Source: Halobacteriales archaeon YIM A00010 (GTDB lineage: Archaea > Halobacteriota > Halobacteria > Halobacteriales > Haloarculaceae). Taken from it: 64,000 nt of DNA. Positions 39,555 through 61,615 of this stretch are shown here, piece by piece. A program made the translations under genes and the position numbers. The DNA lies in the NCBI GenBank assembly GCA_025041175.1, contig JAKCFJ010000002.1, forward strand, positions 620,001 through 684,000. The letters run 5' to 3'. The stretch's first letter is position 1; each line of letters opens with the position of its first letter. The notes below the pieces were generated by a model, which did no database searches, was not told the DNA's origin, and saw only the letters and a program-made list of their open reading frames with translations.

Positions 39555-39620
39555 TATACAAAGGTTCGCACAATCATTAATATACACTTCGATATGTTAC
39601 AATACCCGTGTCAGCACTGT

Positions 39621-40222: not shown

Positions 40223-40227
40223 CGTCT

Positions 40228-44330: not shown

Positions 44331-44977
44331 GCGTTGCTCACCTCACTACCGGGGAGGAGTCGCTGGACGCCGTATAGGCCGGCGTCGACGAGAATCGCGA
44401 TGGCCGAGATGACGATGGCGCTGCCCAGTATCTGTTCTGTGTTCCCGAGACTGATGCCGCGGAAGATGCTCTCTCCGAGACCGGGTGCGCCGAAGAACGC
44501 CGTAATCGTCGTGATAGCGACGAGGAGAACGGCCGCCTGCCGGATGCCGGCCATGATGACCGACATCGCCTGGGGCAGTCGTACGCGGAGCAGTATCTGG
44601 CGGTCGGTCATCCCGAGCCCGCGCCCGACCTCGACGCTCGACTCGTCGGCGTTCTCCAGACCGACGTAGACGTTCCGGGCGACGGGCAGTGCCGAGTACA
44701 GCACTAGCGCCGTCACCGCCGCGGGGATACCGATGCCAACCAGCGGGATGAGCATCGAGAGCAATGCCAGACTCGGGATAGTCAGGACGATCCCGAACAC
44801 GCCTAGCGTCATGTCCGAGAAGCGGTCATAGCGGTGGATGAGGATGCCCGTTGTTCCCCAGAGGACGATACCGAAGAACAGGCCGGTCAGCGCGATGTTC
44901 AGGTGTTGGATGGCCTGCTCAACCAACAAGTCACGGTTTTCGAGCATCCATGTGATGATGTCTGTGACTGTCGGCAT
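44327..44977 (-). CDS. OpuC/OsmU-type ABC permease subunit
   Basis: 216 residues, about six helices, EAA loop SVEVGRGLGMTDRQILLRVR (about 113-132). It is paired with the second permease at 42647; two different permeases are usual in OpuB/OpuC systems. It starts 3 nt after the binding-protein stop and overlaps the ATPase start. Confidence 0.88.
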   Translation of the reverse strand: MPTVTDIITWMLENRDLLVEQAIQHLNIALTGLFFGIVLWGTTGILIHRYDRFSDMTLGVFGIVLTIPSLALLSMLIPLVGIGIPAAVTALVLYSALPVARNVYVGLENADESSVEVGRGLGMTDRQILLRVRLPQAMSVIMAGIRQAAVLLVAITTITAFFGAPGLGESIFRGISLGNTEQILGSAIVISAIAILVDAGLYGVQRLLPGSEVSNA

Positions 44978-44980
44978 GAC

Positions 44981-45916
44981 TCAGAGGTACCCATTCTTCG
45001 TGAGGAAGTTCTCGGCGACTGAGCTCGGATCCTTCCCCTCGGTGGTCACCTTCGCGTTTAACTTCTGCTGAGTCTTGGTCGTGAGGTCCTTCGTAGGCTT
45101 GTTGAGCGTCTTCTTAATGTCCGCCGTCAGCTTGTCCGTCGGAACGTTCGGGGCTGGGTTGTAGATGTTGAAGAACGGCTTGGTGTCCTTGAGGATTGGC
45201 AGGTCGAACTGCCGGATTTTCGGGTCGGTCGCAAAGCCGAAGCCCAGCTGGGCCTTGCCCTGTTTGACGGCTTTGTAGACGAGGCCGATTTTCATCTGGA
45301 TGACGGCAATCTCCGATTTCTTGTCGTCGAAGCCATACGCTTTGGGCAGGCCGCCCCAGGCGTCGTCGCGCTGTTCCATCTCCTGGTTCATCGCGACCTT
45401 GAAGTCAGTGTTGCCCTCATTGACGTACTTGGTGAGGTCCTCAAGGGTCTTTAGACCGTTCTGTTCGACCCACTCGGGGTTGCCGACAATGACGTACGTG
45501 TTGTTGAATGGGGCGTGCTCCAGCCAGTCAATGTCGTACTTCTCATTGTACGCGGAGTCGACCTTGTTGTAGAGTCTCTTTGGGTCTCTGACATCGGCGT
45601 CTTTGTCGAGAACGTTCGTCCACGCGGTGCCTGTGTACTCCCAGTAAAGGTCGGACTCATCGTTCCTCAGAGCCTTGAAGTTCGCCGGTGACCCGCCGAG
45701 GCCGGTCTTGTCCGTGACCTCGTGGCCGGCATTCTCAAGGAGAGCCATACTTATATTGCTGAGGACGAACTGCTCGGTGAAGTTCTTCGAGGAGACGACG
45801 AACGTCTTGCCGCCGCCGCTGATGAGACCGAGACAGCCAGTGAGACCTGTACTCAGTCCCACTAGAGATCCGCCTGCCACTTTCAGTGCTGTGCGTCGCG
45901 TTGTACCGTCTGCCAT
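44981..45916 (-). CDS. quaternary-amine (OpuAC/OsmX-type) substrate-binding lipoprotein
   Basis: 311 residues with a Tat lipoprotein signal: RR at 7-8 and lipobox LTGC with Cys28. The mature part is a type II binding fold of the OpuAC family: VSSKNFTEQFVLSNISMALL, then ESDLYWEYTGTAWTNVL, the conserved stretch that contributes aromatic residues around a trimethylammonium group. The first gene of the importer-lyase operon. The family binds glycine betaine, choline, carnitine, proline betaine and, in EgtU-type proteins, ergothioneine. The exact ligand cannot be read here. Confidence 0.9.
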   Translation of the reverse strand: MADGTTRRTALKVAGGSLVGLSTGLTGCLGLISGGGKTFVVSSKNFTEQFVLSNISMALLENAGHEVTDKTGLGGSPANFKALRNDESDLYWEYTGTAWTNVLDKDADVRDPKRLYNKVDSAYNEKYDIDWLEHAPFNNTYVIVGNPEWVEQNGLKTLEDLTKYVNEGNTDFKVAMNQEMEQRDDAWGGLPKAYGFDDKKSEIAVIQMKIGLVYKAVKQGKAQLGFGFATDPKIRQFDLPILKDTKPFFNIYNPAPNVPTDKLTADIKKTLNKPTKDLTTKTQQKLNAKVTTEGKDPSSVAENFLTKNGYL

Positions 45917-46020
45917 AGGACACCATGACTCATTCATTCAACCTAACAATTGTATCGCACATATAGGGCCTTTTAAGTTATTCGCGGCGATTCACCGCGA
46001 TTACCGTGTCAGAGCCGCCA

Positions 46021-46701
46021 TTATGACGGCGACTCCTGCTCCGCCAAAATCTCTGCGATGTGGCCCATTCCCCGCCGAAGATGCTCACCGGCTGTACTCT
46101 TCTCGATGCCGACTACCGCCGCCACGTCTGTCAGCGTCGCCTCCCGTGGCACGTCGAAGTACCCCAGGTCGTCTGCAACCGTGATTACCTCGCGCTGACG
46201 GTCGGTCAGGAGTTCCTCCAGTGCCCCCCACGTGACTGGGCTGGGATTGAATACCGTTTCGATGTCGTTCACCACGCGCTCAATGCCGACCGTTCCTATC
46301 GCCTCAAGACGGTCGACCAAGCCGACGAGTCGCTCCCTGTTCTGGACAAACAGGTCGAAGAATTCGTATCCGTTCCGGAGAATCGTCGGGTCGAGAGGCA
46401 TGTAGTCGTTCTCCAGCATGATGGTGTACGGTGTCGGCTCGGGAAACTGCGCGAACGCTAGCACCATCGCGTGCTCCATGGCTGTGGTCGGACCCTGGTC
46501 GATCACCTCCATGGACTCGAAGTAGTCGGCAGACCTCGCGAGGGCGATGGCTTCGTCGATGTTCGGACCGTGGAACCGATAGAGAGCCGTGTACCGTCGG
46601 TCGTGTAACGTCGCCGTGTAGACATCCCCCCAGATGTCGTATTGGCCGAGTTCCGACGTCCAGTCGTCCGGCAATCGAACCCGAATTCTCGCACCGAACA
46701 T
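46021..46701 (-). CDS. HTH-10 family transcriptional regulator of the importer-lyase operon
   Basis: About 226 residues with MFGARIRVRLPDDWTSELGQ as the probable start. A longer frame from ATG 46800 exists, but a TATA-like TTATATAG at 46814-46821 would place transcription start inside it. The C-terminal HTH_10 domain reads ELLTDRQREVITVADDLGYF, then LTDVAAVVGIEKSTAGEHLR. It lies upstream of and on the same strand as the binding-protein gene with a 104-nt gap, so it likely responds to the imported compound. Confidence 0.86.
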   Translation of the reverse strand: MFGARIRVRLPDDWTSELGQYDIWGDVYTATLHDRRYTALYRFHGPNIDEAIALARSADYFESMEVIDQGPTTAMEHAMVLAFAQFPEPTPYTIMLENDYMPLDPTILRNGYEFFDLFVQNRERLVGLVDRLEAIGTVGIERVVNDIETVFNPSPVTWGALEELLTDRQREVITVADDLGYFDVPREATLTDVAAVVGIEKSTAGEHLRRGMGHIAEILAEQESPS

Positions 46702-46813
46702 GGATCTGATTCGGGATTCGCTTGCATAAATCGTCGGGGACGTTCTCGGATCGCTTCCGATGGCATCAGGCTCCCGCACTATTATCTCGATCGAATCCAT
46801 AATATTTTCTATC

Positions 46814-47008: not shown

Positions 47009-47768
47009 GGCACTGCTAGATTGAGGTTGAACTGAGTGGAGTTCTTCGAGGTAGTTGTGACCCAACTCAAAGAACTCCACGTCGAGGTATCGGGTTCATC
47101 GGACCTACCATTTTTGGATGTTGACCGGACGCGCACGCCAGCCTGGCTGATCAGGCTGGCGTGCGCTGCGCATGCTTCGGCAGCCTCATTGGCTGAATGC
47201 CGCGATCTCTGCGAGTGGTTCGGCGTCAGCCGAACCCGAGCTACCATTCAGAACTGGTATCAGTCCTACGCCGAGCATTACGACCAAGACTTCACGGCTG
47301 AACCAGATCGTGTCGCCGTCGATGAGAAACAAATCCAACTCGGCGAGGAGGAAAAAGCGTGGCTTTACGCCGCGATTGATATCGAAACGAAGGTCGTGCT
47401 TCACGCACGACTTTCGCAGAATCGCGGGACAGACCCTGCAATGACATTTCTTCGGGAATTGAAAGAGAAACACCGCGTCGAAGACGCGGAGTTTCTCGTT
47501 GACGGAATGGGCTATCTGACTGCCCTCGCAAAGACTAATCTCAGTGGCCACCTTGACTACTCCGACCGAAACATCGTTGAGAAGCTGTTTCAGACGTATA
47601 CGATGCGTGTGGGTCGATTTCACGAAACGTGGAACGGCAGTCAGCCAAGCGCCGAGCGCTGGCTGACTGCCTACACCGCCTATTACAATCATCACCGCAG
47701 CCATCAAGCGCTGGAGAATCAGACACCAATCGAAGCACTCGAACTGGAGGGTTCAATCTAGCAGTGCC
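47009..47768 (+). mobile_element. complete IS6-family insertion sequence
   Basis: 760 bp bounded by perfect 16-bp inverted repeats GGCACTGCTAGATTGA (47009-47024) and its complement (47753-47768). It holds one intact transposase gene. The flanking octamers TATTCGAT and ACGACTAA differ, so there is no target duplication. Confidence 0.88.
47036..47761 (+). CDS. IS6-family DDE transposase
   Basis: 241 residues from a GTG start 12 nt inside the left repeat. The DDE residues appear intact: Asp96 in RVAVDEKQIQL, Asp156 in FLVDGMGYLTAL and a Glu in RNIVEKLFQTY (about 182). The C-terminus HHRSHQALENQTPIEALELE is the usual IS6 tail. Replicative transposition with cointegrate formation is typical. It differs from the dead copy at 39621, so two IS6 types have visited this region. 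Confidence 0.92.
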   Translation: MEFFEVVVTQLKELHVEVSGSSDLPFLDVDRTRTPAWLIRLACAAHASAASLAECRDLCEWFGVSRTRATIQNWYQSYAEHYDQDFTAEPDRVAVDEKQIQLGEEEKAWLYAAIDIETKVVLHARLSQNRGTDPAMTFLRELKEKHRVEDAEFLVDGMGYLTALAKTNLSGHLDYSDRNIVEKLFQTYTMRVGRFHETWNGSQPSAERWLTAYTAYYNHHRSHQALENQTPIEALELEGSI

Positions 47769-48280
47769 ACGACTAAAGACATAGCTATTATTCGACAAAA
47801 ATCACAGCGATCTCCAGAGATGGTGTGAACCGCCATCTTATATCATGAATCGATCATAACATCAGTCAACTATTGCCATCAGATATCGGGCGACACTCCT
47901 AATCCCCTTGTATAAGCTCTCTACTCCCTATTCTCCATAGTCAAACCCCACACATAATTATTAGCTGTGTCTCGCCCACAAACCATAATGTTTTAGACAG
48001 AATTGCATAACTGCCATTAGTTGTGCGTCCTTATAAGATATTATACATTGGATAGAATGATCTTCGATTGTTCGAGGTGTCGTCTTTCCCGACTAGGTAA
48101 CCATCTACTATTAGAATTATTATATAATATACAAACCATAATAAGAAATACATCACCAGCAATTCATAATTATATAATCATAATCTAATATACATATTTT
48201 TAAATATATATCTATATACTCATAATTATATATACACAACTTAGGAAATATAATTTTATTTATCTAAATCTTCTGATATC
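47769..48280. other. very AT-rich non-coding stretch
   Basis: About 510 nt, growing extremely AT-rich from 48115 to 48265 (runs such as TATTATATAATATACAAACC and AATTATATATACACAAC). No ORF. Such a stretch next to a conjugation-like cluster could be a melting region of an origin or a transfer start, or simply decayed sequence. Confidence 0.5.
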
Positions 48281-48284
48281 ACAA

Positions 48285-48647: not shown

Positions 48648-49097
48648 ATGGGAACGCCCGAGACATACGATGATATTTTGGAAAAAATATTTGGAAATAG
48701 AGAACTTTTGATTAGAGCGATGCATTTCTATAACGGTGAAGCAAGCACGAAACAAATACGCGAACACGGAGATATTCCAAGGGGTTCTATTCACACTACA
48801 ACAGGAGAAATGGAAGACTGGGGTGTGATCAAGGAAATAGATCGGAAGTCCATCGGACAGGGCAGCCGGACCAAGATATATAAACTGACTGACCTTGGGC
48901 ACGCTATCTGCGAGGCCGTGGTTGACAACGAGAGAACGACCGCAGATGATGTCCAAGACCTCTCTGAACAAGTGGAAGCCCAACAAGAGACAATCCAAGA
49001 GCTTGAGGCTGAACTCAAAGAGCTGCGTAAGGACTACGACGAGATGGATGACGTTTTGGATTCTGTGGAGAACTTCCTCAAAAAGCAGAGTGCTTGA
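48648..49097 (+). CDS. winged-helix regulator with C-terminal coiled coil
   Basis: 149 residues. Residues 15-85 form a winged helix-turn-helix (LIRAMHFYNGEASTKQIREH, then IPRGSIHTTTGEMEDWGVIK and the wing SIGQGSRTKIYKLTDLG). Residues 95-140 are a heptad-rich coiled coil (DVQDLSEQVEAQQETIQELE). It converges with the conjugation-like cluster, ending 14 nt from the last gene of that cluster. A self-binding palindrome precedes it. It may control transfer genes. Confidence 0.78.
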   Translation: MGTPETYDDILEKIFGNRELLIRAMHFYNGEASTKQIREHGDIPRGSIHTTTGEMEDWGVIKEIDRKSIGQGSRTKIYKLTDLGHAICEAVVDNERTTADDVQDLSEQVEAQQETIQELEAELKELRKDYDEMDDVLDSVENFLKKQSA

Positions 49098-49111
49098 CTC
49101 CGAAGACGCTG

Positions 49112-52100
49112 CTAATCGTCGTTTGCAACAGCCTCGTTCTTCCCTTTCCGGGACGCCAAGGCTTCTATGGCCTGCTCTCGAGCCGCCTGTTGCTGCTCAC
49201 GGTGCCACTCCTCCCACTCATTCAGTGCAATCGACTCACCGTCCTCGTAGATCGAGAGGTCCGCTAGGTCAGCAGCGCCCGCAGGCACTTCTATCACATC
49301 CCATTCGTCCTGGTCGGGGATCCCCCCAGAATTGAACATGCGCTCAACGATGAACGGAGTCTTCACGTTGGTCAGATCGTCGGGCACATCTGCACCCTCA
49401 GGAAGAGTCTCGGGATATGCGTCTGGCTTCGAGAAGACGGCCTGCGCATTCTCGAAACGATGATGGACGGTTCCACCAGTATCCCCACAAATGAGATCGC
49501 CTGTTCGAGGATCACGTTTCCAGATCGTGTAGTCTTGCTTCACCTCCTTCGACACGGTTGGTCGAAGAATCTGTTCACCATCAATGGTAAGATTTCCGCC
49601 GTTATAGAGGATCTGTACCCCAGTCTTGTCGTTGCTCTTTTCAGAATAGTACGGCGGGTCAGTAAGCGTGTTCCAGACCTTCTCAGCCACATCGGGTCGC
49701 GCCAACAGCAGGCAGCGTTGTCCCTTGTTGACCGTTCGTGCGACATTTAATGCCGTTTGAAAGGGATTTGAGTCACCAGTCGATGACTCAGCTTCAAGTG
49801 CGATTCCTTGACTATCAACGTCAAGGACCTCAGTCGGGAATAACTCACCGGTCGCCTGCGACGGATCAGCGACGATTTCCTGTCCGAGAGCGACCCGTGA
49901 GAGCAGCGGGAACTCGTCAACGAAGTTCTCCATGACGACCCGCTGCTCGCGTTCTGAGAGCGCGTCAGCGTCGATCTCTCCGAGCGGTGTTGCGGCGAGG
50001 GAGAGCCAGCCGTCCGGCATCGTCTTTCCATCCTGCTCAGGCAGGGTAACACGCCCATCGAGTTTCATCAGCGGTTCATAGGAGTCCTTCAGCAGCTCGC
50101 GGTGCTTGAGACCGCCACTTGTCGGTGAGTTCCCTGTGTAGAAGATGTTGCGTTTGCCGTTGTCAGTTGTCCGGAGCCAGATAGTACCATCGTCGTCCTC
50201 CCGCCGCTCAATCAGCCCATCCTCGTCGCCGGTCGGCATCGCATCGATCAGCGCGTCGACTTGGGAGTTGTGTTCCAGCGACTCTGGATCATCGTGGTAC
50301 TTTCGAATCCGATCGCGGCAGTGGTCGACTCTGACTGCCCCGTTGTCGTTGTCACGGATGATCGACTCGTCGAGGATCGCTTCGCAGACTGCCGCTCGAC
50401 GATCGTCGGTCACCTCCAACGGATCGCTCTCGGAATCGGGGCTCGGGGACTGGCCACTACTCACCATCAGCTCCTCACGGATCTCCTCATCAGTTCTCGG
50501 ACGCTGCCCGTAGCGTTCTTGCGACTGGCGGATGAGCTTCTTCGTCTTTGCCTCCGACCGTACGTCTTCGAGGACTTCGGTGGCCGGAAGTAAGGTTCGA
50601 ACCTTGTACGAGTCGGTCTTTTCGTCCCGATCGTTGTTCGTCCGCATGTAGATTCGGTACTTCGAGAGTTCCGCAACGTCTTCGCCATCGATGTTCTTCG
50701 AATGTTGGCGAGCGATGCCAACGGCATCATCTTCGCCGGGATCGAAGGACAGGAACGTTTTACAGTTCCCTCGGATTGCTTTTTGGATGCTCTCAGGGAT
50801 GCCCACGTTGTCCCCTCCACCCGTATCGAGGTTCTGCGCCGATAACGTCAGTGAGAAGTCGAATGCGCGGGCCTCTCGAAGGATGTTATGGATGTCCGAA
50901 TGCTCACTCACGATCTTGTCGAACTCGTCACAGACGACATAAAATGCAGGAGGATCGGGAACGCTGTCGCGGTTGGATTGCTCACGGATCGCCACCCATA
51001 GACGGCGGATAAGAGCCGTCGCAATCAGACGCTTTGGCGTCTCACCGCTCGATCGATTCCTGACGACCACGATCTTGCCCTCCCGAACGATATCCTCGAT
51101 CGAGATCGTCGTCTCCGGGTGGCTAGCGACCGATCGAACCGTCCGTGAAAACATCCACTCCCACAGCCGCCGGTAGAGTGGTTCGAGTTCGTTTTGGGAA
51201 TACTCCGAGATAACGTGCGTTGCCTGCTGAATCCATTCGATGCGCTCCTCGGACATCATCCTGTGAAGCTGCTCGCGTCCCTCGTCGTTGGCAACCAAAA
51301 ACGCCATGTCAAGCATCGTGACAGGCTCTCCTGTACGAACCTGATACTCGGCAAGACCACGGACGACCGCCCGCGTCACACCGCTCATCCGCGATCCCCA
51401 CTGACTGTTCTCTCCTCCCGACTGGGCAAGCAGAGATTCGAGATCGTCAGCTAGTGCAGATACCGCACTATCGAATTCCTTACTCTCTGGATCTGGATCT
51501 TCTAACGGGATTTCAAGGAAATTGAATCCAATTTCATACTCCGAATCGGACCCAATATCGATGAACACGAGGTCGTCTTCCCGGTCCTCGGGCATGATCT
51601 GAACAATCTCATCAGCATCCCTGCCTTTCGGATCGAAAAACAATCCACCGTGACCGCGCTGCATGATCTGATAGAAGAAATTGATCAAGAGCGTGGTCTT
51701 CCCCATACCGGTGCTGCCGCCGACGAACTGGTGGACGTTCAAGATCTCCGGCTCGACACCCGCCTCGATCCCGGATTTCGTCCCGAAGCCGTAGTAGATC
51801 GGTAGCGACGGATCAGTTACCGACAGCAGCGCTCGCTGGCGTTCCTCCTGGCTTGCGGTCCGATCGAGGCCAAAAGCACCCCAGTCAACGCGTGGTGTGC
51901 GCGGTGGAACCCCCATCCCAGACGCCGACATGGAGTAGTCGTATTGCTGGAGTTCGAGATCGGTCGGGATTTTGGCGACGCCAGCCAGCGTATCAACAGG
52001 CAGTGTGACCTTCCGATCAGCAAACTGGCGGCCAGCAGCGCGTTTCAACATCCGGTTGAGTTTTCGCTTCGATAGCGATACCGACTCAAAGCCTTGCTCA

Positions 52101-53113
52101 AAGCGGCTATCGAAGAATGAGAACATCTCCGCTACGTTAGCAACACGCTGACGAGCCGTCTCGACATCGTCGCTGACGGCGAGGATCCGAACGCAGAGAT
52201 GGTAGCCACGCATCCCACGGTACTCTCCGAGCAGCTTAGAGACGGAGGATTCACCCGGTAACGACACATCGTCTGAGTGATCGGGCATGAATTGATTGGC
52301 TATCTCATCACGTTCCCGTTGTCGTCGCTTCCGTCGATTCTCGCGTCGTCGCTGTTTCTCACTGAGACCGATCTGCTGGATTGGCTCTGCGATCTCCCGG
52401 CCAATCTCACCCCAATCCATCGATGAACTGTCTGCCTTCCCGGTGATGCTCTCAATCGTCTCATCGATGCCGTACCACCAATTCAGACGATCCCAACGGG
52501 CAGTCGAGACAGCGGGTTTGATGACAAATTGGACGAGTACATCACAGTCAGCGTGGTGGGCTGCCCCCGTCATCTCCTTCGTGATCGACCGGTACGGGCC
52601 GATATCGAAGTGATCAGCGTCAATCCGGAAGCTCTTCAGCGGGCGCAGCTGGTCAGTCTCGCTCCGGTTCCGGAGTCGCAACACGGTCCCAGCGACGGAC
52701 TGGTCCGGACGGACATCAAGGAACGCTGGATCAACTTCGCGGGTATCTGAATCGTCGTAGTAGGCGTCAACTTGCCGATCAACAAGATCGTATTGCGCGT
52801 CGGTCTGGGTAGCGATCCGCGACTGGAGCAGCTCGGTATCATCCGAGTAGTGTAACTCGAACGCGATCGGATCCGATCGGTTGCGAAGGCCCAATAGCTG
52901 TGTCTTCAGGGATGGAGAGTGAAGGGCTGTGAGGAGCTTCATCCCTCGCTTCAAGCCATTCTCGGTGTCTTTGTACGGACGGACGGTCTGCAATCGGAGA
53001 TCTCGTGAGCGGTCGTAGAGGGTCGTTGCGAGCCCTTCATCCGCCGTGATCGTCGTGGGTCCGTCTCCGAACGGCCAGAGTGAAGACGATCGAAGTGAGG
53101 AGATCGACACCAT
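49112..53113 (-). CDS. VirD4/HerA-like coupling ATPase of a conjugation-type system
   Basis: 1333 residues. The central P-loop ATPase has Walker A FVGGSTGMGKTTLL (about 462-475), GGLFFDPKGRDADEIV just after it, and Walker B FYVVCDEFDKIV (about 725-736), followed by LTLSAQNLDTGG. This set is typical of TraG/VirD4-type type IV coupling proteins and HerA-FtsK ATPases. Residues 1-450 and the C-terminal 450 residues are not recognised; the C-terminus could hold a substrate-binding or relaxase-like part. No transmembrane anchor is obvious. Last of the cluster's minus-strand genes; ribosome-binding site GAGGTGA precedes the ATG. It is likely to feed DNA or protein to the VirB4/VirB6-like channel. 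Confidence 0.85.
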   Translation of the reverse strand: MVSISSLRSSSLWPFGDGPTTITADEGLATTLYDRSRDLRLQTVRPYKDTENGLKRGMKLLTALHSPSLKTQLLGLRNRSDPIAFELHYSDDTELLQSRIATQTDAQYDLVDRQVDAYYDDSDTREVDPAFLDVRPDQSVAGTVLRLRNRSETDQLRPLKSFRIDADHFDIGPYRSITKEMTGAAHHADCDVLVQFVIKPAVSTARWDRLNWWYGIDETIESITGKADSSSMDWGEIGREIAEPIQQIGLSEKQRRRENRRKRRQRERDEIANQFMPDHSDDVSLPGESSVSKLLGEYRGMRGYHLCVRILAVSDDVETARQRVANVAEMFSFFDSRFEQGFESVSLSKRKLNRMLKRAAGRQFADRKVTLPVDTLAGVAKIPTDLELQQYDYSMSASGMGVPPRTPRVDWGAFGLDRTASQEERQRALLSVTDPSLPIYYGFGTKSGIEAGVEPEILNVHQFVGGSTGMGKTTLLINFFYQIMQRGHGGLFFDPKGRDADEIVQIMPEDREDDLVFIDIGSDSEYEIGFNFLEIPLEDPDPESKEFDSAVSALADDLESLLAQSGGENSQWGSRMSGVTRAVVRGLAEYQVRTGEPVTMLDMAFLVANDEGREQLHRMMSEERIEWIQQATHVISEYSQNELEPLYRRLWEWMFSRTVRSVASHPETTISIEDIVREGKIVVVRNRSSGETPKRLIATALIRRLWVAIREQSNRDSVPDPPAFYVVCDEFDKIVSEHSDIHNILREARAFDFSLTLSAQNLDTGGGDNVGIPESIQKAIRGNCKTFLSFDPGEDDAVGIARQHSKNIDGEDVAELSKYRIYMRTNNDRDEKTDSYKVRTLLPATEVLEDVRSEAKTKKLIRQSQERYGQRPRTDEEIREELMVSSGQSPSPDSESDPLEVTDDRRAAVCEAILDESIIRDNDNGAVRVDHCRDRIRKYHDDPESLEHNSQVDALIDAMPTGDEDGLIERREDDDGTIWLRTTDNGKRNIFYTGNSPTSGGLKHRELLKDSYEPLMKLDGRVTLPEQDGKTMPDGWLSLAATPLGEIDADALSEREQRVVMENFVDEFPLLSRVALGQEIVADPSQATGELFPTEVLDVDSQGIALEAESSTGDSNPFQTALNVARTVNKGQRCLLLARPDVAEKVWNTLTDPPYYSEKSNDKTGVQILYNGGNLTIDGEQILRPTVSKEVKQDYTIWKRDPRTGDLICGDTGGTVHHRFENAQAVFSKPDAYPETLPEGADVPDDLTNVKTPFIVERMFNSGGIPDQDEWDVIEVPAGAADLADLSIYEDGESIALNEWEEWHREQQQAAREQAIEALASRKGKNEAVANDD

Positions 53114-53119
53114 TACTCG

Positions 53120-53242
53120 TCACCTCGATTCATCGACGTCCTCTACCGGATTGATCCACTCATTCATAGATGAGGCAGTACTGTTCCGACAGCAGAGTGC
53201 AACAAGCGTGCTCGTTTTTCCCGATGCTGTCGCGTTAGTCAT
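53120..53242 (-). CDS. 40-residue ORF between the two ATPase genes
   Basis: ATG at 53242 overlaps the VirB4-like stop region and the TGA at 53120 lies 6 nt before the coupling ATPase ATG, within its ribosome-binding site. The product starts MTNATASGKTSTLVALCCRN and ends MNEWINPVEDVDESR. Position suggests a coupling peptide; alternatively it is a chance frame. Confidence 0.35.
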   Translation of the reverse strand: MTNATASGKTSTLVALCCRNSTASSMNEWINPVEDVDESR

Positions 53243-56200
53243 CGTTACCAACCTCTCCAACCCGTCCAGTCGTTGGCTGAGCGTCTGTCTCACTATTCGA
53301 GGTCACTGCATCGGGAATCGTCATCGGTTCTTCTGTGTGTGCTTCTGGCCCCACGTCAGGGCGTTCGCCCGGCATCGTCCACGACCAGTCGCAGACATCG
53401 TTGCCGTTCTGGTCGGTGTAGTTGTCGAGATACGCCAGCATGTCCTCGCCGTGATCGGTTGGATCGAACTGGTTGACTGCAAATTCACGGGGGTTCAATT
53501 CGTCAGAGAACTTCACGTCAAGGGCGAAACTCCCTTCCTTGTCGACCTGCAGGAGTGCTTGAGCAGTGGGGTTACCTGTGTCTGCGTTCACGACGTACTG
53601 TTGTTCTGCTTCGCTGAAATCGAATTCTCCGGCCACGTGATCATCATTCATCTCCTTCAAGAAATGGAAGATTTTCACCGACATCAAGTTGATCAGCGTT
53701 TTGGCACTTGCAGTGAGCTGCTTCCCATCTTTGTCGTCCTTTTCAGTAAAGAACTCATCAACTGATTGGGTGGCCGTCAGGATCGAGAGCTCCGAGTGGC
53801 GAGAGTGTCGGTACAGCTGTTTGAGCGTTTCGAGACTCGATGAATTCCGCAGCATGTAATGGAACTCATCAATCCCGAATAGCATTGGCTCGTCGAGCGC
53901 TTGGGCCTGCGAGTAAATTGCTGAGATGAGTGGTCCCATCATGAGACCAGCCGTCGACTCGCTCTCGTACTGTTGAAGGTCGAGGTACAGCACGTCGATA
54001 TTCTCGACGTCGATCTCCGTCTCTTTCGAAAGGTGCTCGAACTCACCACCCTCTTCGAGCGCCCCGATATCGTCCATCAAGATAGCGTTGGCACGCTCTC
54101 GTCGCAGATCTTTCGAGTGTTCAACGTCCGTGAGTGCATCGCGCACGAAATTTTCGGGATGGTTGACCATCTCCTCGAAAATCGGGAACACATCATCACG
54201 GAGCGTCGGACTCTGCCGGTTGTGAGTCGTCGGATCATCAGTAATCCCATGTCTCGCGTAGGCTTCTTTGATAGCAGCTCGCCACGTGCCCTGTTTTTTC
54301 TCGAACGGAATACCCATGAAGTTGTAGTAACTCCGAACAAAATCCATCGCTCGACGGACAGCCTGTCGTTTGGGCGACTCCTCCCCCAACACTTTGAGTT
54401 TCTCACGAGGGATGGGATCGATCTGTAACGGATTGATTCCGGTGTCGGAACCGACAACGACACGCTCACCGCCAAAGAGCCACGTGAAGCCTGCGAACTC
54501 CTGAAGCGGATCGATAATGACCACTGGCATATCGGGATTCCGGAGCTTGCTGTGCAGCAGGATTCGGGTCATCGTGGTGGTCTTGCCGCCGCCGATCGTG
54601 GCCCAAAGTCCGACGTTAAACCCAGTCTCCCGGTTCATGAGGTCGAGGACGATCGGGTCTCCAGTGTCCTCGTTGATCCCCAGCTCGATGCCGTTCGGCT
54701 CGATCAGGTTCCGGGCAGTCCACGGGATTAACCGGGCGAGTCCGTCACCGACCATTTTCGAGTTCCCCCCGATGTAGTTCTTACACGCAGGGGCTGCCGT
54801 GCGGTATCCTAGCCGATTGTTGTGCTTGAGTGGCTTCGCATCGGCGGAGACGTCCTGAAGCCGCGATCTAAGCCGTTCGACAGCCGTCTCAAGATGGTCC
54901 GGTGTGGGCGCACGAACTTCGAGGTAGGTATGTGACGTGTACAGTCCGTACTCTGAGTTGGAAACCGTCTGCTGGACACTTTTCACTTCAGCGAATTTCT
55001 GCACAGCCTTTTCAACGAAAATATCAGGTATCCATCTGCTCTCCGCAAATGAGTACACCTTATCCTTGATCGAATCAGCTGCTTCAGATAGCTCTCGCTC
55101 TGCCTTCTGACTATCTTCGCCGGTAACGTGCGTTGAGATCGTGACATTGACCGCTGGCATTGAGAACGATGTAACCGGGTCGAGAAAGCCGTAGGTGGGG
55201 ATAGCAGGCCAATCACGGATCTCTAGCGTGGTCGTATACTGCTTGTTGAACCCGTCATCGCTGATAATCCCGTAATCCTCCGATCGAGTGTATTCGTAGG
55301 GCGCGAGAGCCGATTTGTATTGCCACTCCTCATTATCCCCGCCAACAAGCGCATCCTCGCCGAGAACGGTTGTTTCGACATCTACCTCCGATGCTTCCTC
55401 CTCGTGATTAGAGTCGGTTGATGAGGAAACAGACCGCCCGAAGTTCGAGATATGCTGGTACGACACGTCGTGCTCAGGATCGCCAGCATCCCCGTCTTCA
55501 GTCTCATTGGGGACGGGTGTCCCTCGGATGCAGTTCGTGAAGTCCTTGTACGCACGCACATTGGTGCTCCGGTAGTAATCCGCGACCTGCTCGGAAAACT
55601 CGACAGCGGATAGCGACTGTGTTGAGATACCCTCAACCCGCGCGAGTTCGTTACTGAGCGTATCCACACGCCGTTGAAGCTTTCTGATGAGGGTGTCAAC
55701 ATGCTCCTCCGAATCAGCCTGCTCACGCAGCCGTTTTTTCTCGATAAGCGAACCAACGCCCGGAATGGTCCCGAGTCCACCTTCCTCCGATGATCGCTCG
55801 ATCACCGCCTCACCGGGATCAACACTGACGAGTACGTAGTATTCCCGCACGCGCTTGACCTCTTCGTGGAGATTGATCACGGCTGCACGCTCTTCACAGA
55901 CATCGGCCAGAATCTGCTTTCGCACCCTGTCGATCTCACTACTGAGGTCACTGGTCTGACTCTCCGCTTGGCTCCGAAGCGTCTCGCCACGATCCGCCCA
56001 CTTCGATTTCCGCCGCTCGAAGTCAGCCGCTCGAACGGGAGAGTATAACTGTGCATCGTAGTCAACAGCGGCTTCGAACGCATCAGCAACCGCTAGAGAT
56101 GCCTTCTGTTTGGATTCGTTCGATTCCATTCGGAGCGGGATTGCGAAGACACGAATCGCACCGATGAGTGCCCCGTCATTGCGTTGGATGGCGTATTCGC

Positions 56201-56690
56201 CACGATATGGCGTCGAATGAGCAACGAGATCCTGTGTTGGTTGATACTCTCCTGCACCAATGATCGGCCAGTCACGCACGAGCGGGAGGCGTGCGATCCG
56301 TCCGAGCAGCGAGTCGTTTTTCGGCTGTTCGAGTCGGCTATGGTCTGGGTCAGTGTCGTGAATCATTGTCCGTTGATGTGCGTAGTACGAAATAATCGCT
56401 GACAAGTACCGCTCGATGTTCATCGTACTCGGGGTTGCCAGTGCAACCCCGATCGCAAGAACGGCGAAAAGCACAGATCCAATGAGTCCATAGAGCTGCG
56501 CCGTACCGGTCAGGTAGCTCGCTGCGATCCGGAACATGACCATCGCAGGGAGTAACATGAAAAACAGCCACACCTTCGAATAGCCCCACAGTTCCGGATC
56601 TGTTGAGTAGTTAGCGAGGACTTTCTGGTTCGTGTCGCTGTTGTTGATCTGGTTGCGAACTTCCTTGATGAGCTCACGTGGGTTTGTCAT
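53235..56690 (-). CDS. VirB4-like conjugation ATPase with N-terminal membrane segments
   Basis: 1151 residues. Residues 35-85 contain two transmembrane helices (YSKVWLFFMLLPAMVMFRIA, YGLIGSVLFAVLAIGVALAT) resembling a fused VirB3/PrgI-type part. A long middle region with coiled coils follows. The ATPase has Walker A LWATIGGGKTTTMTRIL (about 695-711), VVIIDPLQEFAGFTWLFGG after it, Walker B MLFGIDEFHYML (about 935-946) and ILTATQSVDEFF. This is the VirB4/TraC family that powers type IV secretion. It overlaps the membrane-protein gene upstream by four bases. It is the strongest marker of a conjugation-type apparatus here. Confidence 0.88.
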   Translation of the reverse strand: MTNPRELIKEVRNQINNSDTNQKVLANYSTDPELWGYSKVWLFFMLLPAMVMFRIAASYLTGTAQLYGLIGSVLFAVLAIGVALATPSTMNIERYLSAIISYYAHQRTMIHDTDPDHSRLEQPKNDSLLGRIARLPLVRDWPIIGAGEYQPTQDLVAHSTPYRGEYAIQRNDGALIGAIRVFAIPLRMESNESKQKASLAVADAFEAAVDYDAQLYSPVRAADFERRKSKWADRGETLRSQAESQTSDLSSEIDRVRKQILADVCEERAAVINLHEEVKRVREYYVLVSVDPGEAVIERSSEEGGLGTIPGVGSLIEKKRLREQADSEEHVDTLIRKLQRRVDTLSNELARVEGISTQSLSAVEFSEQVADYYRSTNVRAYKDFTNCIRGTPVPNETEDGDAGDPEHDVSYQHISNFGRSVSSSTDSNHEEEASEVDVETTVLGEDALVGGDNEEWQYKSALAPYEYTRSEDYGIISDDGFNKQYTTTLEIRDWPAIPTYGFLDPVTSFSMPAVNVTISTHVTGEDSQKAERELSEAADSIKDKVYSFAESRWIPDIFVEKAVQKFAEVKSVQQTVSNSEYGLYTSHTYLEVRAPTPDHLETAVERLRSRLQDVSADAKPLKHNNRLGYRTAAPACKNYIGGNSKMVGDGLARLIPWTARNLIEPNGIELGINEDTGDPIVLDLMNRETGFNVGLWATIGGGKTTTMTRILLHSKLRNPDMPVVIIDPLQEFAGFTWLFGGERVVVGSDTGINPLQIDPIPREKLKVLGEESPKRQAVRRAMDFVRSYYNFMGIPFEKKQGTWRAAIKEAYARHGITDDPTTHNRQSPTLRDDVFPIFEEMVNHPENFVRDALTDVEHSKDLRRERANAILMDDIGALEEGGEFEHLSKETEIDVENIDVLYLDLQQYESESTAGLMMGPLISAIYSQAQALDEPMLFGIDEFHYMLRNSSSLETLKQLYRHSRHSELSILTATQSVDEFFTEKDDKDGKQLTASAKTLINLMSVKIFHFLKEMNDDHVAGEFDFSEAEQQYVVNADTGNPTAQALLQVDKEGSFALDVKFSDELNPREFAVNQFDPTDHGEDMLAYLDNYTDQNGNDVCDWSWTMPGERPDVGPEAHTEEPMTIPDAVTSNSETDAQPTTGRVGEVGNDD

Positions 56691-58633
56691 TTGTCATCTC
56701 CCATTGTGGTTCGGGTATAGCTCCGATCGTCCCGGAGAAACGCTTCTTTCATGGCTTCAGGAGTCAGAGATGCGGATGATCTCGACTGTTGAGCCTGTTC
56801 CCGATCGTATTTATCCCGAATTTTCGATGCGAGAGTCGTTTGTGTATAGCTGGTCGATGTATTCTGTCGACTCGATCCACTCGACGATGCCTCACTTGCG
56901 TTGGTCATCTCTTCGACAGTGGTGCCGCTAGTTGCGCCGGAATCACTGGCCGTGGCAGAACTCCCCCAACCCACTTTCTGCTTTGCTGCTCCAACCCGAT
57001 TCGCTGCTCCTGTCGCCACAACACTCGCTTTCGACCCGATGTATCCCGGCATTTGGAGGAAGAAGTACGTCGAAATGAGGGGATATAACAGCATCACAAT
57101 GAAGAGCCCGAGAATCGCCAAGACGCCCACAAACCCCCCGAAGCCAAATCCCCATTTGACTGTGACAGCGGCTTGGAGGATGATCGCTATCGGAATACTC
57201 ATAGTTAAAATATTGATATACTGCCAGATCGCTTTGTGAGCTGCACGCTTCAGACCCGTCCACGGAGCTAGATACGCCGTGAGCGCGAGCGGACCGAAGA
57301 TATATGGGAAAACGCTCGTGAGGAGTACTTGCCGTAATCCGAAAAGAAGACCCACACCGAACGCAGCGGACGATCCGACAAAAGCTCCCCCAAGATATGC
57401 CGCCACCGGGATACCAGAGCTAAACGCTAACAGATTCGTCGCAGAGTCCGTTACAGTACCCGGATTTGGCATGAGAAACTCTGTCGTTACTTTGACAAAC
57501 TTATGCATGAGCGTGACAGCCGTCCATGAAAAGGCATACAGCATCAGCCCAGTCACGAATTTGATCAACAAATCCCAGATTCGAAACTCCGACATCACCG
57601 GGTTAACCGTTAACGATAGGCCGAGAAAGATGATACCTAGTCCCAACAAAGAATTCGTCACGGGGTAGATTTTTTCGACAAGCAGACCATTGTATAGCGA
57701 TTTGAACGGTTCGTTTGTAGGCTCTCCAAGAATCCCCTTCCATCCGGTATTTTCGGGGACTGGCGTGTTGAGTGTAAGGTCATAGATTCTTTGAGAGACC
57801 CAATTGAATCCCTCTTCGAACAGTTCGGCAAGGGCCTCAAGCTTCTGCTCCATCCATGAATTGAAATTAATTCCTAGGTCCTCCTTTTCTGGCTGTCTCC
57901 CGGCTGATCCAAGTTCATCTTCGAGAATTTGACGAATTTCTTCCTTATCTTCATCACTTATACCCGTTATAGAATCAATTACACCGTCTCCTAATGGGTC
58001 AACAATATCACGAAACTGCATGTCCCACTCCCGATGAGTCATCTCTTCCTCATTTATCTGTAATGAACGAATTTTGGTTTTGATAGCCTCTTTGGATTTT
58101 AAAGAAAGACCGTCATATCCCACATCCAGTCGACTGATTTCTGTGACTACCTGTATAGTTCCCTCATCACCATTCTCGGGCAACTTTTCTTTAGGGGTGA
58201 AGCCACCAATCTTCTTGTTGAAGACGTTAGCAATTGTGTTGTTAATTGTCCCATCCCTTTCAGGGGCTTTGGACGTGGGTTTAGTAGGAGGCTCATAGTC
58301 CAAAAGATTGGAAATGCGTCCCAGTCGTTGTTTTTCCTCCTCCTCACTCAACTCACCGGACTGCAACGCTTGGAGATCATTCTCTATTTGCTGTTCCTCC
58401 TCTGAAGAGAGTTCTTCATCCCCCTTTTTTGTTACATTTAACCATTCGATGATGGCAGTAACCCCCTCGTTGGATTGGTTCGCCTCGTCTTGCTGAGCGA
58501 CGACATCGCCGTCTAGCTGTGGCTGAAATGTGTCGTGAGCATGGCCGAATGCGGTCATAGGAACAATACTACTAGCGACGAACAGGAAGGCGAATGCGTA
58601 AACCATCCCTCGCTGGAGTGATCGTGAGTTCAT
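56687..58633 (-). CDS. VirB6/TrbL-like polytopic membrane protein
   Basis: 648 residues with a Sec-type signal (GMVYAFAFLFVASSIVPMTA, 9-28), a charged region of about 280 residues, then at least six hydrophobic segments between about 325 and 545 (for example SLLGLGIIFLGLSLTVNPVM, AAYLGGAFVGSSAAFGVGLL). The tail is Ser/Thr/Gly-rich (about 560-648). This layout, next to VirB4, matches the channel-forming VirB6/TrbL class. It overlaps VirB4 by ATGA. Assignment rests on topology and position. Confidence 0.7.
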   Translation of the reverse strand: MNSRSLQRGMVYAFAFLFVASSIVPMTAFGHAHDTFQPQLDGDVVAQQDEANQSNEGVTAIIEWLNVTKKGDEELSSEEEQQIENDLQALQSGELSEEEEKQRLGRISNLLDYEPPTKPTSKAPERDGTINNTIANVFNKKIGGFTPKEKLPENGDEGTIQVVTEISRLDVGYDGLSLKSKEAIKTKIRSLQINEEEMTHREWDMQFRDIVDPLGDGVIDSITGISDEDKEEIRQILEDELGSAGRQPEKEDLGINFNSWMEQKLEALAELFEEGFNWVSQRIYDLTLNTPVPENTGWKGILGEPTNEPFKSLYNGLLVEKIYPVTNSLLGLGIIFLGLSLTVNPVMSEFRIWDLLIKFVTGLMLYAFSWTAVTLMHKFVKVTTEFLMPNPGTVTDSATNLLAFSSGIPVAAYLGGAFVGSSAAFGVGLLFGLRQVLLTSVFPYIFGPLALTAYLAPWTGLKRAAHKAIWQYINILTMSIPIAIILQAAVTVKWGFGFGGFVGVLAILGLFIVMLLYPLISTYFFLQMPGYIGSKASVVATGAANRVGAAKQKVGWGSSATASDSGATSGTTVEEMTNASEASSSGSSRQNTSTSYTQTTLASKIRDKYDREQAQQSRSSASLTPEAMKEAFLRDDRSYTRTTMGDDK

Positions 58634-58686
58634 ATCAGTTAAGTATTATCAGTATCTGGGTAACTTCTATCAGATCACTCGATTAT

Positions 58687-59202
58687 TCAACTCCCACCAG
58701 TATTGCATTCAGCAGACATATCGATGGGCGTTGCGCTGTCCGCGAGATCCACAAATGCTGGGCCGAGTACGAAAAACCCGACACCGACCATGAACCCACC
58801 GAGCAACTGGTTTCCGATACTATTCGTTCCCCGGACCGGGACTGCCTTCAAGACAGCAGCGGTAGCAATTATGACACCAAAAATCATCCCGACAGATTGG
58901 ATAGTGAGCGTCTCTACGCTGCCGATAAATTGAAGAAAGCCTTCGTTACAGTTTGGCTGTGCGCTAGCTGGGCCGACAGTGAACATCATCGCAGGGATCA
59001 TGAACATCATCACCCAGCCAGTCCGGGATCGTGATGCGCGTTCACCCATACGCTCAAGGCCGACAAGAGTCAGGCCAGTAAAGGCCATAGCGAGCGGGAA
59101 CTCTCGCCGGGCTGTTTGCGTGAGGAATGCAACACTGCCCTGAATAGCCGTTACCGATGCAGTAACTATCGAGTGGACTCGTTTCACAATTCTACGATCC
59201 AT
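58687..59202 (-). CDS. VirB2/pilin-like small membrane protein
   Basis: 171 residues. A hydrophobic segment at 62-81 ends in a signal-peptidase-like GPASAQ site (79-82). After it come two helices (about 101-121 and 131-151) separated by a short basic loop (KAVPVRGTNS), with cysteines near the mature ends (Cys86, Cys166). Two helices with a cytoplasmic loop after a long cleaved leader is the VirB2/TrbC pattern. First gene of the transfer cluster, 53 nt before the VirB6-like gene. Confidence 0.6.
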   Translation of the reverse strand: MDRRIVKRVHSIVTASVTAIQGSVAFLTQTARREFPLAMAFTGLTLVGLERMGERASRSRTGWVMMFMIPAMMFTVGPASAQPNCNEGFLQFIGSVETLTIQSVGMIFGVIIATAAVLKAVPVRGTNSIGNQLLGGFMVGVGFFVLGPAFVDLADSATPIDMSAECNTGGS

Positions 59203-59368
59203 ACCAACCTTACCCCACAGACCAAGAAATCAAATCTCCCCATGTATTTTAATTTGCATTATGAAATGATATGAATTGGCAGAGTTCTCCTCCAAAACAT
59301 CACTGTAAAATCAATATTAAAATACATAGAGTGGATATCACTTGGTAGCTCAGAAACAACCCCGGAGC

Positions 59369-59806
59369 ATGGATAAGACAGCAAACTCGTCTGACCAGAC
59401 GAGCATCCCACGGTCCGGTATCAAACAGTTGTTTCGCTCTCCACAACGACTCTCCCAACCTGCCGTCCGCACGGTCGTTGACCTCAAACCCCACGAAATA
59501 CGAACCTATTTCGCGCTCGTAGATCATCCTCAGAGTTCCGTCGACGAGCTCGCCGATGTCCTCAATCGACCGCGTAGTCACGTCGCCACTGTTCTCCGCA
59601 CTCTGATCGACACCGGCCTTGTGACACGGATTCGGCAGGGCTCAGAGACCGAACAGCAGGGTTACGTCTATGATACAGTCCCACTGGCCGACACCAAACG
59701 AGCACTCCACCGCCATGTAGATCAGTGGACTGCCAGCGTTCGGGCGGAGATCGATGCCCTCGATGAACCACTGATGGAGGCACAATCTAATGATGAGTCC
59801 AAATGA
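59369..59806 (+). CDS. winged-helix (TrmB/MarR-like) transcriptional regulator
   Basis: 145 residues from ATG at 59369. Residues 30-105 form a winged helix (EIRTYFALVDHPQSSVDELA, RPRSHVATVLRTLIDTGLVT, wing QGSETEQQGYVYDTVP). The C-terminal part is helical and acidic. It is divergent from the VirB2-like gene and overlaps the beta-helix gene, so it may co-regulate transfer and surface genes. Confidence 0.75.
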   Translation: MDKTANSSDQTSIPRSGIKQLFRSPQRLSQPAVRTVVDLKPHEIRTYFALVDHPQSSVDELADVLNRPRSHVATVLRTLIDTGLVTRIRQGSETEQQGYVYDTVPLADTKRALHRHVDQWTASVRAEIDALDEPLMEAQSNDESK

Positions 59807-61037
59807 GATCGGTTCCTTACGGCGCACGCTCCTCCAACGAGGCGCTGCAATGACAGCTGTTGCCGTAAGTGCGGGACTGAGCGGGTGCGCCTCCACATAT
59901 TATCTGCACAAGAAACGACAAGATCGCCAACAGGAAAACAGTCTTCCAGCAGTTTCGTTTACCTCACAGCGACAGCGCATTACAAAACAGGACGCCAGTG
60001 TTACCGTCAACAACGCCTCAGAGCTCGTGTCAGCTGTGCAGACCCCCGATGCAACCGTCTGGATACCGGAGAATGTGACGATCAATATGACTGGGAACAC
60101 GAAAAATCCAGTCGCACCCAACGTGACGATCGCGAGCAATCGAAATCTCAGTGACGGAAGTGGAGGGATGATACGGACGACGGGGTATGATCGAGATCTA
60201 TTTGTCGTCCCTGAAGGCAGCTGTCGTGTCACTGGACTCCGCTTACAAGGTCCGCGCACCGATTATTTCGATCCTCAAAATAATAAAAAAGAAGCGTATT
60301 ATGCATCAGGGATTCACTTCAAAGGACCGAAAGCTGTCGTTGATAATTGTGAAGTCTTTGGGTGGACAGCATACGGAATCGGCCTCGGTACAAAATCAAC
60401 TCCAACGCAGGGATGGATCCATCACAACGATATGCACCACAACCAAATGAACCACCTCGGCTATCCGATGGAACTGTTCAACGGAATGCACCTGATCGAG
60501 TGGAACTATTTCAGCCACTATCGACACGCAATTTCTGGATACGGATACAAGACAAACGGCTATGAAGCCCGGTTCAACGTTGTTGGAGAATCTGGCGGTG
60601 CGCCAGCGGCATTCGCCTTCGATATGCACAAATTGGGCGAACAGGATAATTATCCAGCCGGTGTGGAAACGGCTGGTGAGTATGTGAACGTACATCATAA
60701 CGTTTTCGAGTTGACAGACCACAACGCCTTCTCGATCTCGGGCATTCCACAGCGATACGCCCGGTTTGCCAACAATTGGTGTGCAACAGCAAAGGGTGGT
60801 AATGGAGCGGGGGCTCCCGCTGTTTCTGCTCCCTCGGGTACAGAGGTCCGGATGGACGCGAATCAATTTGGATCGAACACCGTCAGTCAGGGCAGGAAGT
60901 GGCTCAAGCAACTCTCTCCGGATCTTCCATTGAGCAACGGAAAGCCATCTATACAGTCGTGGTCTCCGCCGTCATCGGTATCTGACGGGCTACAATCGCC
61001 ATCTGGAACGCCGCCGTCCACGGAGGAGGGTCAATGA
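59790..61037 (+). CDS. Tat-exported beta-helix lipoprotein
   Basis: 415 residues. The Tat signal has RR at 11-12 and a lipobox LSGC with Cys33. Residues 75-360 form a right-handed parallel beta-helix of pectate-lyase type: ATVWIPENVTINMTG, PNVTIASNRNLSDG, GIHFKGPKAVVDNCEVFGWT, IHHNDMHHNQMNHLGYP, VNVHHNVFELTDHN. The stacked His/Asn repeats resemble polysaccharide lyases or phage tail-spike-like proteins. The C-terminus is Pro/Ser-rich. It overlaps both neighbours. Binding or cutting of a surface polysaccharide, perhaps on a partner cell, is a reasonable guess. Confidence 0.84.
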   Translation: MMSPNEIGSLRRTLLQRGAAMTAVAVSAGLSGCASTYYLHKKRQDRQQENSLPAVSFTSQRQRITKQDASVTVNNASELVSAVQTPDATVWIPENVTINMTGNTKNPVAPNVTIASNRNLSDGSGGMIRTTGYDRDLFVVPEGSCRVTGLRLQGPRTDYFDPQNNKKEAYYASGIHFKGPKAVVDNCEVFGWTAYGIGLGTKSTPTQGWIHHNDMHHNQMNHLGYPMELFNGMHLIEWNYFSHYRHAISGYGYKTNGYEARFNVVGESGGAPAAFAFDMHKLGEQDNYPAGVETAGEYVNVHHNVFELTDHNAFSISGIPQRYARFANNWCATAKGGNGAGAPAVSAPSGTEVRMDANQFGSNTVSQGRKWLKQLSPDLPLSNGKPSIQSWSPPSSVSDGLQSPSGTPPSTEEGQ

Positions 61038-61615
61038 TCAATTCCAGCTTCGGGCGCTCTATTGTCGTGCTCGTTCTCCTAGTAGCACTCGCCAGCGGCA
61101 CAGCCGCTGTTCACGCGACACCTCAATCCGATGGCGGGATGCATACGCTCGTGATCGAGCAGACGGGGAACAACTCAGTCGGGTATTCGGTGTCCGTGTC
61201 TGGGAAAATCACTGCGGTAGACAACGAAACGAGTGATAGCATCACAGGACAGACAGCGAGCGGTCGTGTCGGCGGATTACCGTGGAAAAACACGAGTACA
61301 GATACCGAAGACGAGATCCGCTTTACCGGCCACATCCGAGACTTCGAACACGATGGGGGGAACATCCGTCTCATACTCGACGGAAAACAGGTTGACCCCA
61401 GCTCGTTGTACAATACACCACAGACGGCATCTCCCCCACCAACTCCAACAACGGACAGCACAACGCCCACGCCATCGACTGCTTCACCGACTCATTCCCT
61501 CCATTCGACGCCATCATCAGGTGCTGGAGACGGTGAATCGTGGCTGTCGCTCAATTTCGTTATCGGTCTCTCGGTCGCTAGTGTGCTGGCACTCCTGTTC
61601 TTCCGGCGAGTCTGA
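61034..61615 (+). CDS. surface protein with signal peptide, repeat-type domain and C-terminal membrane anchor
   Basis: 193 residues. A Sec signal (IVVLVLLVALASGTAAVHA) is followed by one domain (HTLVIEQTGNNSVGYSVSVS ... IRFTGHIRDFEHDGGNIRLI) of the type repeated in the protein at 29343. Next comes a Pro/Thr/Ser-rich linker (about 130-165) and a transmembrane anchor (LNFVIGLSVASVLALLFFRR). This is the common layout of a membrane-tethered haloarchaeal surface protein. It is coupled (ATGA) to the beta-helix gene. Confidence 0.75.
   Translation: MINSSFGRSIVVLVLLVALASGTAAVHATPQSDGGMHTLVIEQTGNNSVGYSVSVSGKITAVDNETSDSITGQTASGRVGGLPWKNTSTDTEDEIRFTGHIRDFEHDGGNIRLILDGKQVDPSSLYNTPQTASPPPTPTTDSTTPTPSTASPTHSLHSTPSSGAGDGESWLSLNFVIGLSVASVLALLFFRRV

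Follow-up and report, generated by a model that had tools for sequence, protein, structure and literature searches.

A likely minimal conjugation-type IV secretion apparatus of haloarchaeal plasmids, located on a 1.02-Mb contig

The window analysed here is a stretch of 64,000 nucleotides from Halobacteriales archaeon YIM A00010, comprising bases 620001-684000 of contig C2 (1.02 Mb) in a haloarchaeal genome of 5.97 Mb and 7 contigs. Four long minus-strand genes lie in tight order from 59202 down to 49112, and the stated open reading frames (ORFs) are all open as claimed. Together they constitute a genuine, intact, minimal locus of the type IV secretion system (T4SS), of the conjugation type, with the following features:

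58687-59202, minus strand: candidate VirB2-like pilin, 171 aa (family alignment, AQ site, Cys pair)
56687-58633, minus strand: VirB6/TrbL_3-like channel protein (P0003), 648 aa (BLAST to a relative in locus L050, which matches TrbL_3)
53235-56690, minus strand: protein read as a VirB3-VirB4 fusion, 1151 aa (NCBIfam VirB4 models, DUF87)
53120-53242, minus strand: 40-aa ORF between the VirB4 and coupling ATPase genes, probably no conserved gene
49112-53113, minus strand: coupling-type (VirD4/TraG) ATPase with two extra flanks, 1333 aa (Walker A GSTGMGKTT)
51824-53113, minus strand: N-terminal flank of the coupling ATPase, residues 1-430 (separate gene in 13 other loci)
49223-50431, minus strand: C-terminal flank of the coupling ATPase, residues 895-1297, with a winged helix-turn-helix (wHTH) and a putative nuclease (alignments, AlphaFold2)
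48648-49097, plus strand: regulator with a PadR-like wHTH and a coiled coil, convergent with the ATPase gene (21 loci conserve it)
59342-59806, plus strand: TrmB-type wHTH regulator, divergent from the pilin gene (Pfam TrmB, 1.6e-13; relatives in 4 other loci)
59790-61037, plus strand: lipoprotein-like protein predicted to be exported, with twin Arg and a lipobox (members of its family border the system in 8 loci)

A first-pass annotation had described a compact conjugation or T4SS-like locus with a VirB2-like pilin candidate, a VirB6/TrbL-like channel, a VirB4-like ATPase fused to membrane helices and a VirD4-type ATPase of 1333 residues, flanked at both ends by wHTH regulators. This description is upheld by the class of the ATPases, the link to TrbL_3, the pilin features and the plasmid-borne gene order; the fused helices correspond to a VirB3-like module, and the two regulators are the PadR-like and TrmB-like genes. 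The three junctions said to overlap or nearly overlap are a 4-nt overlap between the channel and VirB4 genes, an 8-nt overlap between the VirB4 gene and the 40-aa ORF, and a 6-nt gap between that ORF and the ATPase gene. The 40-aa ORF is present as annotated but is probably not conserved: no homologue was found at the same position in the loci read, a longer 57-aa frame has no Pfam match, and the ORF is best left out of the gene count. Chance falls far short of explaining the gene order, which recurs in dozens of divergent loci.

The 1151-aa protein matches the VirB4 models NF045975 VirB4_plasma, from mycoplasma integrative and conjugative elements (ICE) (1.5e-36), CD1110 (1.8e-27) and TIGR00929 (5.7e-13), with all scores under the equivalog cut-offs, so that homology is established but subfamily membership is not; Pfam DUF87 scores above its cut-off. 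The protein is composed of a VirB3/PrgI-like module with two transmembrane (TM) segments at ~20-112 and a VirB4 ATPase domain at ~430-1110. Residues 22-112, with the two hydrophobic segments, match stand-alone 107-aa proteins (E ~2e-9, small database), the genes of which separate the channel gene from virB4 in Natronococcus loci (L081/L082/L049), and the best Pfam family of the module is PrgI, with a weak score (0.095). The window gene is interpreted as VirB3 fused to VirB4.

The 648-aa channel protein possesses an N-terminal hydrophobic segment and about six more TM segments at 329-515. It matches the protein in the same position in L050 by BLAST (2e-29), and the L050 protein matches Pfam TrbL_3 at 3.1e-12, above cut-off, which places the channel protein in TrbL_3 transitively, via its relatives. 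A VirB6-alignment profile search against the PDB returned nothing credible. The first-pass annotation had recognised neither VirB7-10 nor a known relaxase family, and none was found; in particular, Pfam and NCBIfam profile scans of the window neighbours tested detected no VirB7-VirB10 core family. This core is also absent from minimal wall-less systems.

The window pilin is made up of a leader (residues 1-81, ending ASA/Q, where the slash marks the cut) and a mature part (82-171) with two hydrophobic helices and the cysteines Cys85 and Cys166. Each of the 19 aligned homologues has a leader and two hydrophobic segments, its mature part contains two Cys and no more, and Q follows the AxA-type site in 18 of the 19. 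An automated scan of the available loci covered 159 ORFs of 100-220 aa with two TM segments and identified the signature AxA/Q..C..(75-88)..C in 37; all 37 but one lie inside a T4SS locus and adjoin a VirB6-like gene. Under looser limits, 38 ORFs exhibit a Cys spacing of 79-83, which is exactly 82 in 18 of them. When the mature-pilin profile was compared with the PDB, the top match was the A. pernix CedA1 pilin 8dfu (E=0.012; next match 0.26), and a reversed control of the profile found no pilin; the full-length profile also matched VirB2 (0.0082), yet viral G-protein-coupled receptors scored equally. VirB2-type pilins have both ends facing outward, and therefore an end-to-end disulfide is a natural inference, in which the Cys pair would probably clamp the two ends of the pilin hairpin. 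Such a clamp would have a counterpart in the peptide cyclisation of the TrhA pilin (PMC13031515). The topology, AxA/Q processing and position appear to fit a VirB2/TedC-like pilin, TedC being cleaved at AVA/QA (PMC9905601). An orphan ORF with the AxA/Q, two-Cys, two-TM signature and no adjacent T4SS genes was also observed 3 kb to the right of the window (L079:3027-3476; C2:687027-687476).

Searched alone, the 1333-aa ATPase yields weak matches to TrwB_AAD_bind (0.0015, sub-threshold) and DotL/IcmO (4e-5); among its relatives, TraG-D_C is found in 9/10 and TrwB_AAD_bind in 8/10 at E<=1 (best 3.1e-8). An AlphaFold2 model of residues 20-895 (predicted local distance difference test, pLDDT, 73.6; predicted template modelling score, pTM, 0.56) was searched with Foldseek and retrieved R388 VirB4 first (7.5e-13), then TrwB at ~1e-9, with DndH and HerA near 1e-9 and DotL also among the fold matches; the pTM is modest and only the protein class is claimed from this model. 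The first-pass annotation had named a placement with HerA repair or segregation proteins as grounds for abandoning its reading. Both ATPases instead group with those of T4SS, on the VirB4 model matches, the coupling-protein domains of the relatives and the ranking of R388 VirB4 and TrwB above HerA. The N-terminal flank occurs as a separate gene of ~350-480 aa beside the ATPase gene in 13 loci (L050-L052, L054-L060, L067, L068, L085), and the 1333-aa protein therefore represents two parts fused into one; this flank gives no signal against a VirB4 profile. Missing functions had been suggested for both ~450-residue flanks; of these, the C-terminal one comprises a wHTH and a putative nuclease fold, and the N-terminal one corresponds to a gene that can stand apart.

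The C-terminal flank begins with a winged helix and continues with a domain carrying H1004, PD1033-1034 and E1107-x-E1109. In an alignment, G1000, H1004, Q1027, P1033-D1034, E1107 and E1109 are invariant in 22/22 relatives, and the H, PD and ExE residues are also invariant in 10/10 of a second set, the two sets sharing some genomes. A loose regular expression for H/PD/ExE matched only 22/31 through its spacing limits, and the alignments were relied on instead. An AlphaFold2 model of the flank (pLDDT 79.8, pTM 0.79) runs through the winged helix, a helix (H1004), a strand, a strand (from PD), a helical insertion, a strand (ExE), a helix and a strand. In the model, this alpha-beta-beta-beta-alpha-beta order is that of PD-(D/E)xK nucleases, suggesting a putative nuclease. 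Foldseek against the PDB matched the winged helix only, with no nuclease among the 50 matches listed, and against a viral library gave nothing useful; an alignment profile search against the PDB returned nothing credible, and there is no Pfam match. Among 31 plasmids, the flank was found only attached to coupling ATPases, and the sole apparent stand-alone case was the end of a coupling protein gene cut at the end of contig C5.

MOBC relaxases are PD-(D/E)xK enzymes, and TraX possesses an N-terminal winged helix (PMC12857230). The MOBC-typed pAM373 family exhibits the same order, with H, D152 (VPD in several members) and E170-x-E172; the pAM373 protein served as the MOBC reference, the CloDF13 MobC record having broken frames. 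Like MOBC (TraX of pAD1; pAM373 relaxase), the C-terminal flank carries a wHTH followed by H, PD and ExE, but unlike MOBC it is fused to a coupling ATPase and has 40-100 residues inserted between PD and ExE. Profile comparison with hhalign gave an E of about 0.5, within the shuffled and reversed controls, with or without the insertion, and since there is no profile similarity the flank is not filed as MOBC. In the Diamante Lake plasmidome, which is mostly haloarchaeal, MOBC was reported as the commonest relaxase profile match (PMC8563766), and this is suggestive only. No annotated relaxase is present on the 41.8-kb Halocatena marina or 44.6-kb Halalkalicoccus jeotgali plasmids, and Replic_Relax is above cut-off in 0/194 Halobacteria genomes. 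It is conceivable, as a tentative proposal, that a relaxase is built into the coupling ATPase: the C-terminal wHTH would find the origin of transfer (oriT) and the PD-ExE domain would nick it, combining selection, nicking and pumping in one protein that feeds a disulfide-clamped pilus.

The first-pass annotation had advised looking for the gene order on haloarchaeal plasmids, and the same order was found in >25 haloarchaeal loci, small circular plasmids (41.8-65 kb) included. Complete small plasmids with the system are those of Halocatena marina (41.8 kb), Halalkalicoccus jeotgali (44.6 kb) and Haloferax gibbonsii LR2-5 (pHGLR3, 65 kb; L108). Only the four core genes and a wHTH gene are common to most loci. 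Relatives of the coupling ATPase occur in 64 plasmid records, every named one of which is haloarchaeal, and in no phage records; VirB4 relatives are present in 255/392 Halobacteria genomes. The nearest VirB4 (65%) belongs to another family and the matches in four genomes of the same genus are all distant (E 1e-34 to 1e-39), a pattern that indicates horizontal movement. Additional divergent systems lie on C5, C6 and C7 of the genome that contains the window, and C5 (63 kb) is probably a circular plasmid, because its ATPase gene continues from one end of the contig into the other. Another haloarchaeal class (L070-L077), found more widely, was also observed, with a ~730-aa VirB4, a TrbL_3 channel and the same two-Cys pilin; several of these loci contain a 1460-aa protein without a Pfam match in the coupling-protein position. 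In addition, a family of ~550-620 aa lies beside the system at L047:16459-18333, L005:7578-9329 and 11 other loci; in one member, a weak match of the pectate-lyase type accompanies a TM helix at the C-terminus, and the family is possibly a surface glycan or adhesion factor.

The closest curated VirB4 model is that of the Mycoplasma ICE modules (NF045975, 1.5e-36; PMC12857230). Like the haloarchaeal locus, these modules comprise a minimal VirB3/B4/B6/D4 set with no VirB1 or VirB8, and their host is cell wall-less (PMC12857230); unlike them, the locus has an archaeal S-layer host, a recognisable pilin and a coupling protein with a C-terminal wHTH/nuclease-like domain. Archaeal conjugation is known from Sulfolobus plasmids and from pT33-3, none with a recognised relaxase (PMC12857230, PMC9905601). 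Thermococcus pT33-3, likened here by description as relayed in PMC12857230 (Catchpole 2023), is a euryarchaeal self-transmissible plasmid with no known relaxase, for which VirB4- and VirD4-like proteins are needed for transfer.

The locus is likely to represent a minimal conjugation-type IV secretion apparatus that belongs to haloarchaeal plasmids, the window copy being on a replicon or contig of 1.02 Mb, and it probably serves plasmid transfer. Pilin subunits would be exported and cut by signal peptidase at AxA/Q, and a disulfide between the two extracellular ends would probably lock them. The VirB3-VirB4 ATPase and the VirB6/TrbL-like protein would form a membrane channel and extract or insert pilins, and the soluble coupling ATPase, whose N-terminal part is VirB4-like and which also carries a putative nuclease and a DNA-binding winged helix, would select plasmid DNA and pump it outward. 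Export would take place across a single membrane and S-layer, and therefore no VirB7-10 core would be needed.

Several observations weigh against this interpretation. The likeness of the pilin to CedA1/VirB2 is marginal (E about 0.01) and is supportive rather than proof, P0003 and P0004 have no direct Pfam match, membrane helices are absent from the coupling ATPase itself, no relaxase family or oriT was identified for the system, and the window copy lies on a large replicon or contig rather than a small plasmid. The last of these, along with the IS240-like transposase genes to the left and the orphan pilin-like gene to the right, could reflect a decayed relic of a plasmid integrated into C2. 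However, none of the four genes is truncated, the Walker motifs are intact and the residues conserved in the plasmid copies are retained, and such decay is quite unlikely. No tRNA genes were found in the window, nor long repeats bounding an integrated element at 40-64 kb.

An unlikely alternative is that the apparatus has been domesticated for DNA import or exchange and benefits the cell, not the plasmid, as in the crenarchaeal Ced/Ted systems of Sulfolobales and Thermoproteales (CedA/TedA, CedB/TedB, CedA1/TedC; PMC9905601). These likewise combine a VirB2-like pilin with two hydrophobic helices, a VirB6-like channel and a VirB4-like ATPase, the TedC cut resembles AxA/Q (PMC9905601), and CedA1 is the best PDB match of the pilin profile. 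Unlike Ced/Ted, the haloarchaeal locus adds a VirB3 module, a coupling-type ATPase with a wHTH and putative nuclease, a pilin Cys pair and a plasmid location. Rather than a chromosomal exchange locus without a coupling protein, the system has a coupling-type ATPase that is always fused or adjacent, and is plasmid-borne in many copies, patchy and multi-copy in one genome, with no fixed chromosomal locus. A T4SS-like machine that exports proteins or vesicles, with a non-DNA substrate, is very unlikely: pR1SE-type plasmids do travel inside vesicles and carry a gene for a VirB4-like ATPase (PMC10818511), and several loci are flanked by cell-surface proteins, but the coupling ATPase possesses a predicted DNA-binding wHTH and invariant nuclease-like residues, and no conserved effector-like gene lies beside it. 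HerA and DndH among the fold matches might indicate a repair, segregation or defence system of the HerA-nuclease type with unrelated membrane proteins. This is highly improbable, given that VirB4 and TrwB rank higher in the fold matches, the VirB4 NCBIfam matches are strong, and a pilin and a TrbL_3 protein are linked in nearly all loci.

To the left of the T4SS locus, IS240/rve-type transposase genes lie at 39611-40279 and 47036-47761, and a very AT-rich segment with palindromes and direct repeats at 48112-48284 is a candidate origin or regulatory site. A glycine-betaine-type ATP-binding cassette transporter operon (ATPase with CBS, permease, OpuAC) occupies 43353-45937 and adjoins an HTH_10 regulator at 46021-46800. 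On the right, the lipoprotein-like protein matched no Pfam family, and its accessory role to the T4SS is uncertain; its gene, of a kind that accompanies the T4SS in several loci, is followed at 61034-61615 by a secreted Laminin-G-like domain protein.

Haloarchaea are rich in plasmids and exchange genes freely. Searches of open-access full texts yielded no account of a T4SS or conjugation machine in haloarchaea, and neither conjugation nor a transfer complex is mentioned in the Hfx. gibbonsii genome paper. The locus would give a first testable mechanism for how haloarchaeal plasmids may move, and it has two specific, testable novelties: a family of pilins with two Cys, and a coupling ATPase with a wHTH/nuclease-like tail. 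A four-gene system, a diagnostic pilin signature and the cultivable Haloferax gibbonsii with pHGLR3 (65 kb) make the question testable. Standard typing with MOB-suite labels 61/64 plasmid records with a related ATPase as non-mobilizable. If the nuclease-like tail is a relaxase, a standing puzzle of archaeal conjugation, in which a relaxase is seemingly lacking, would be answered.

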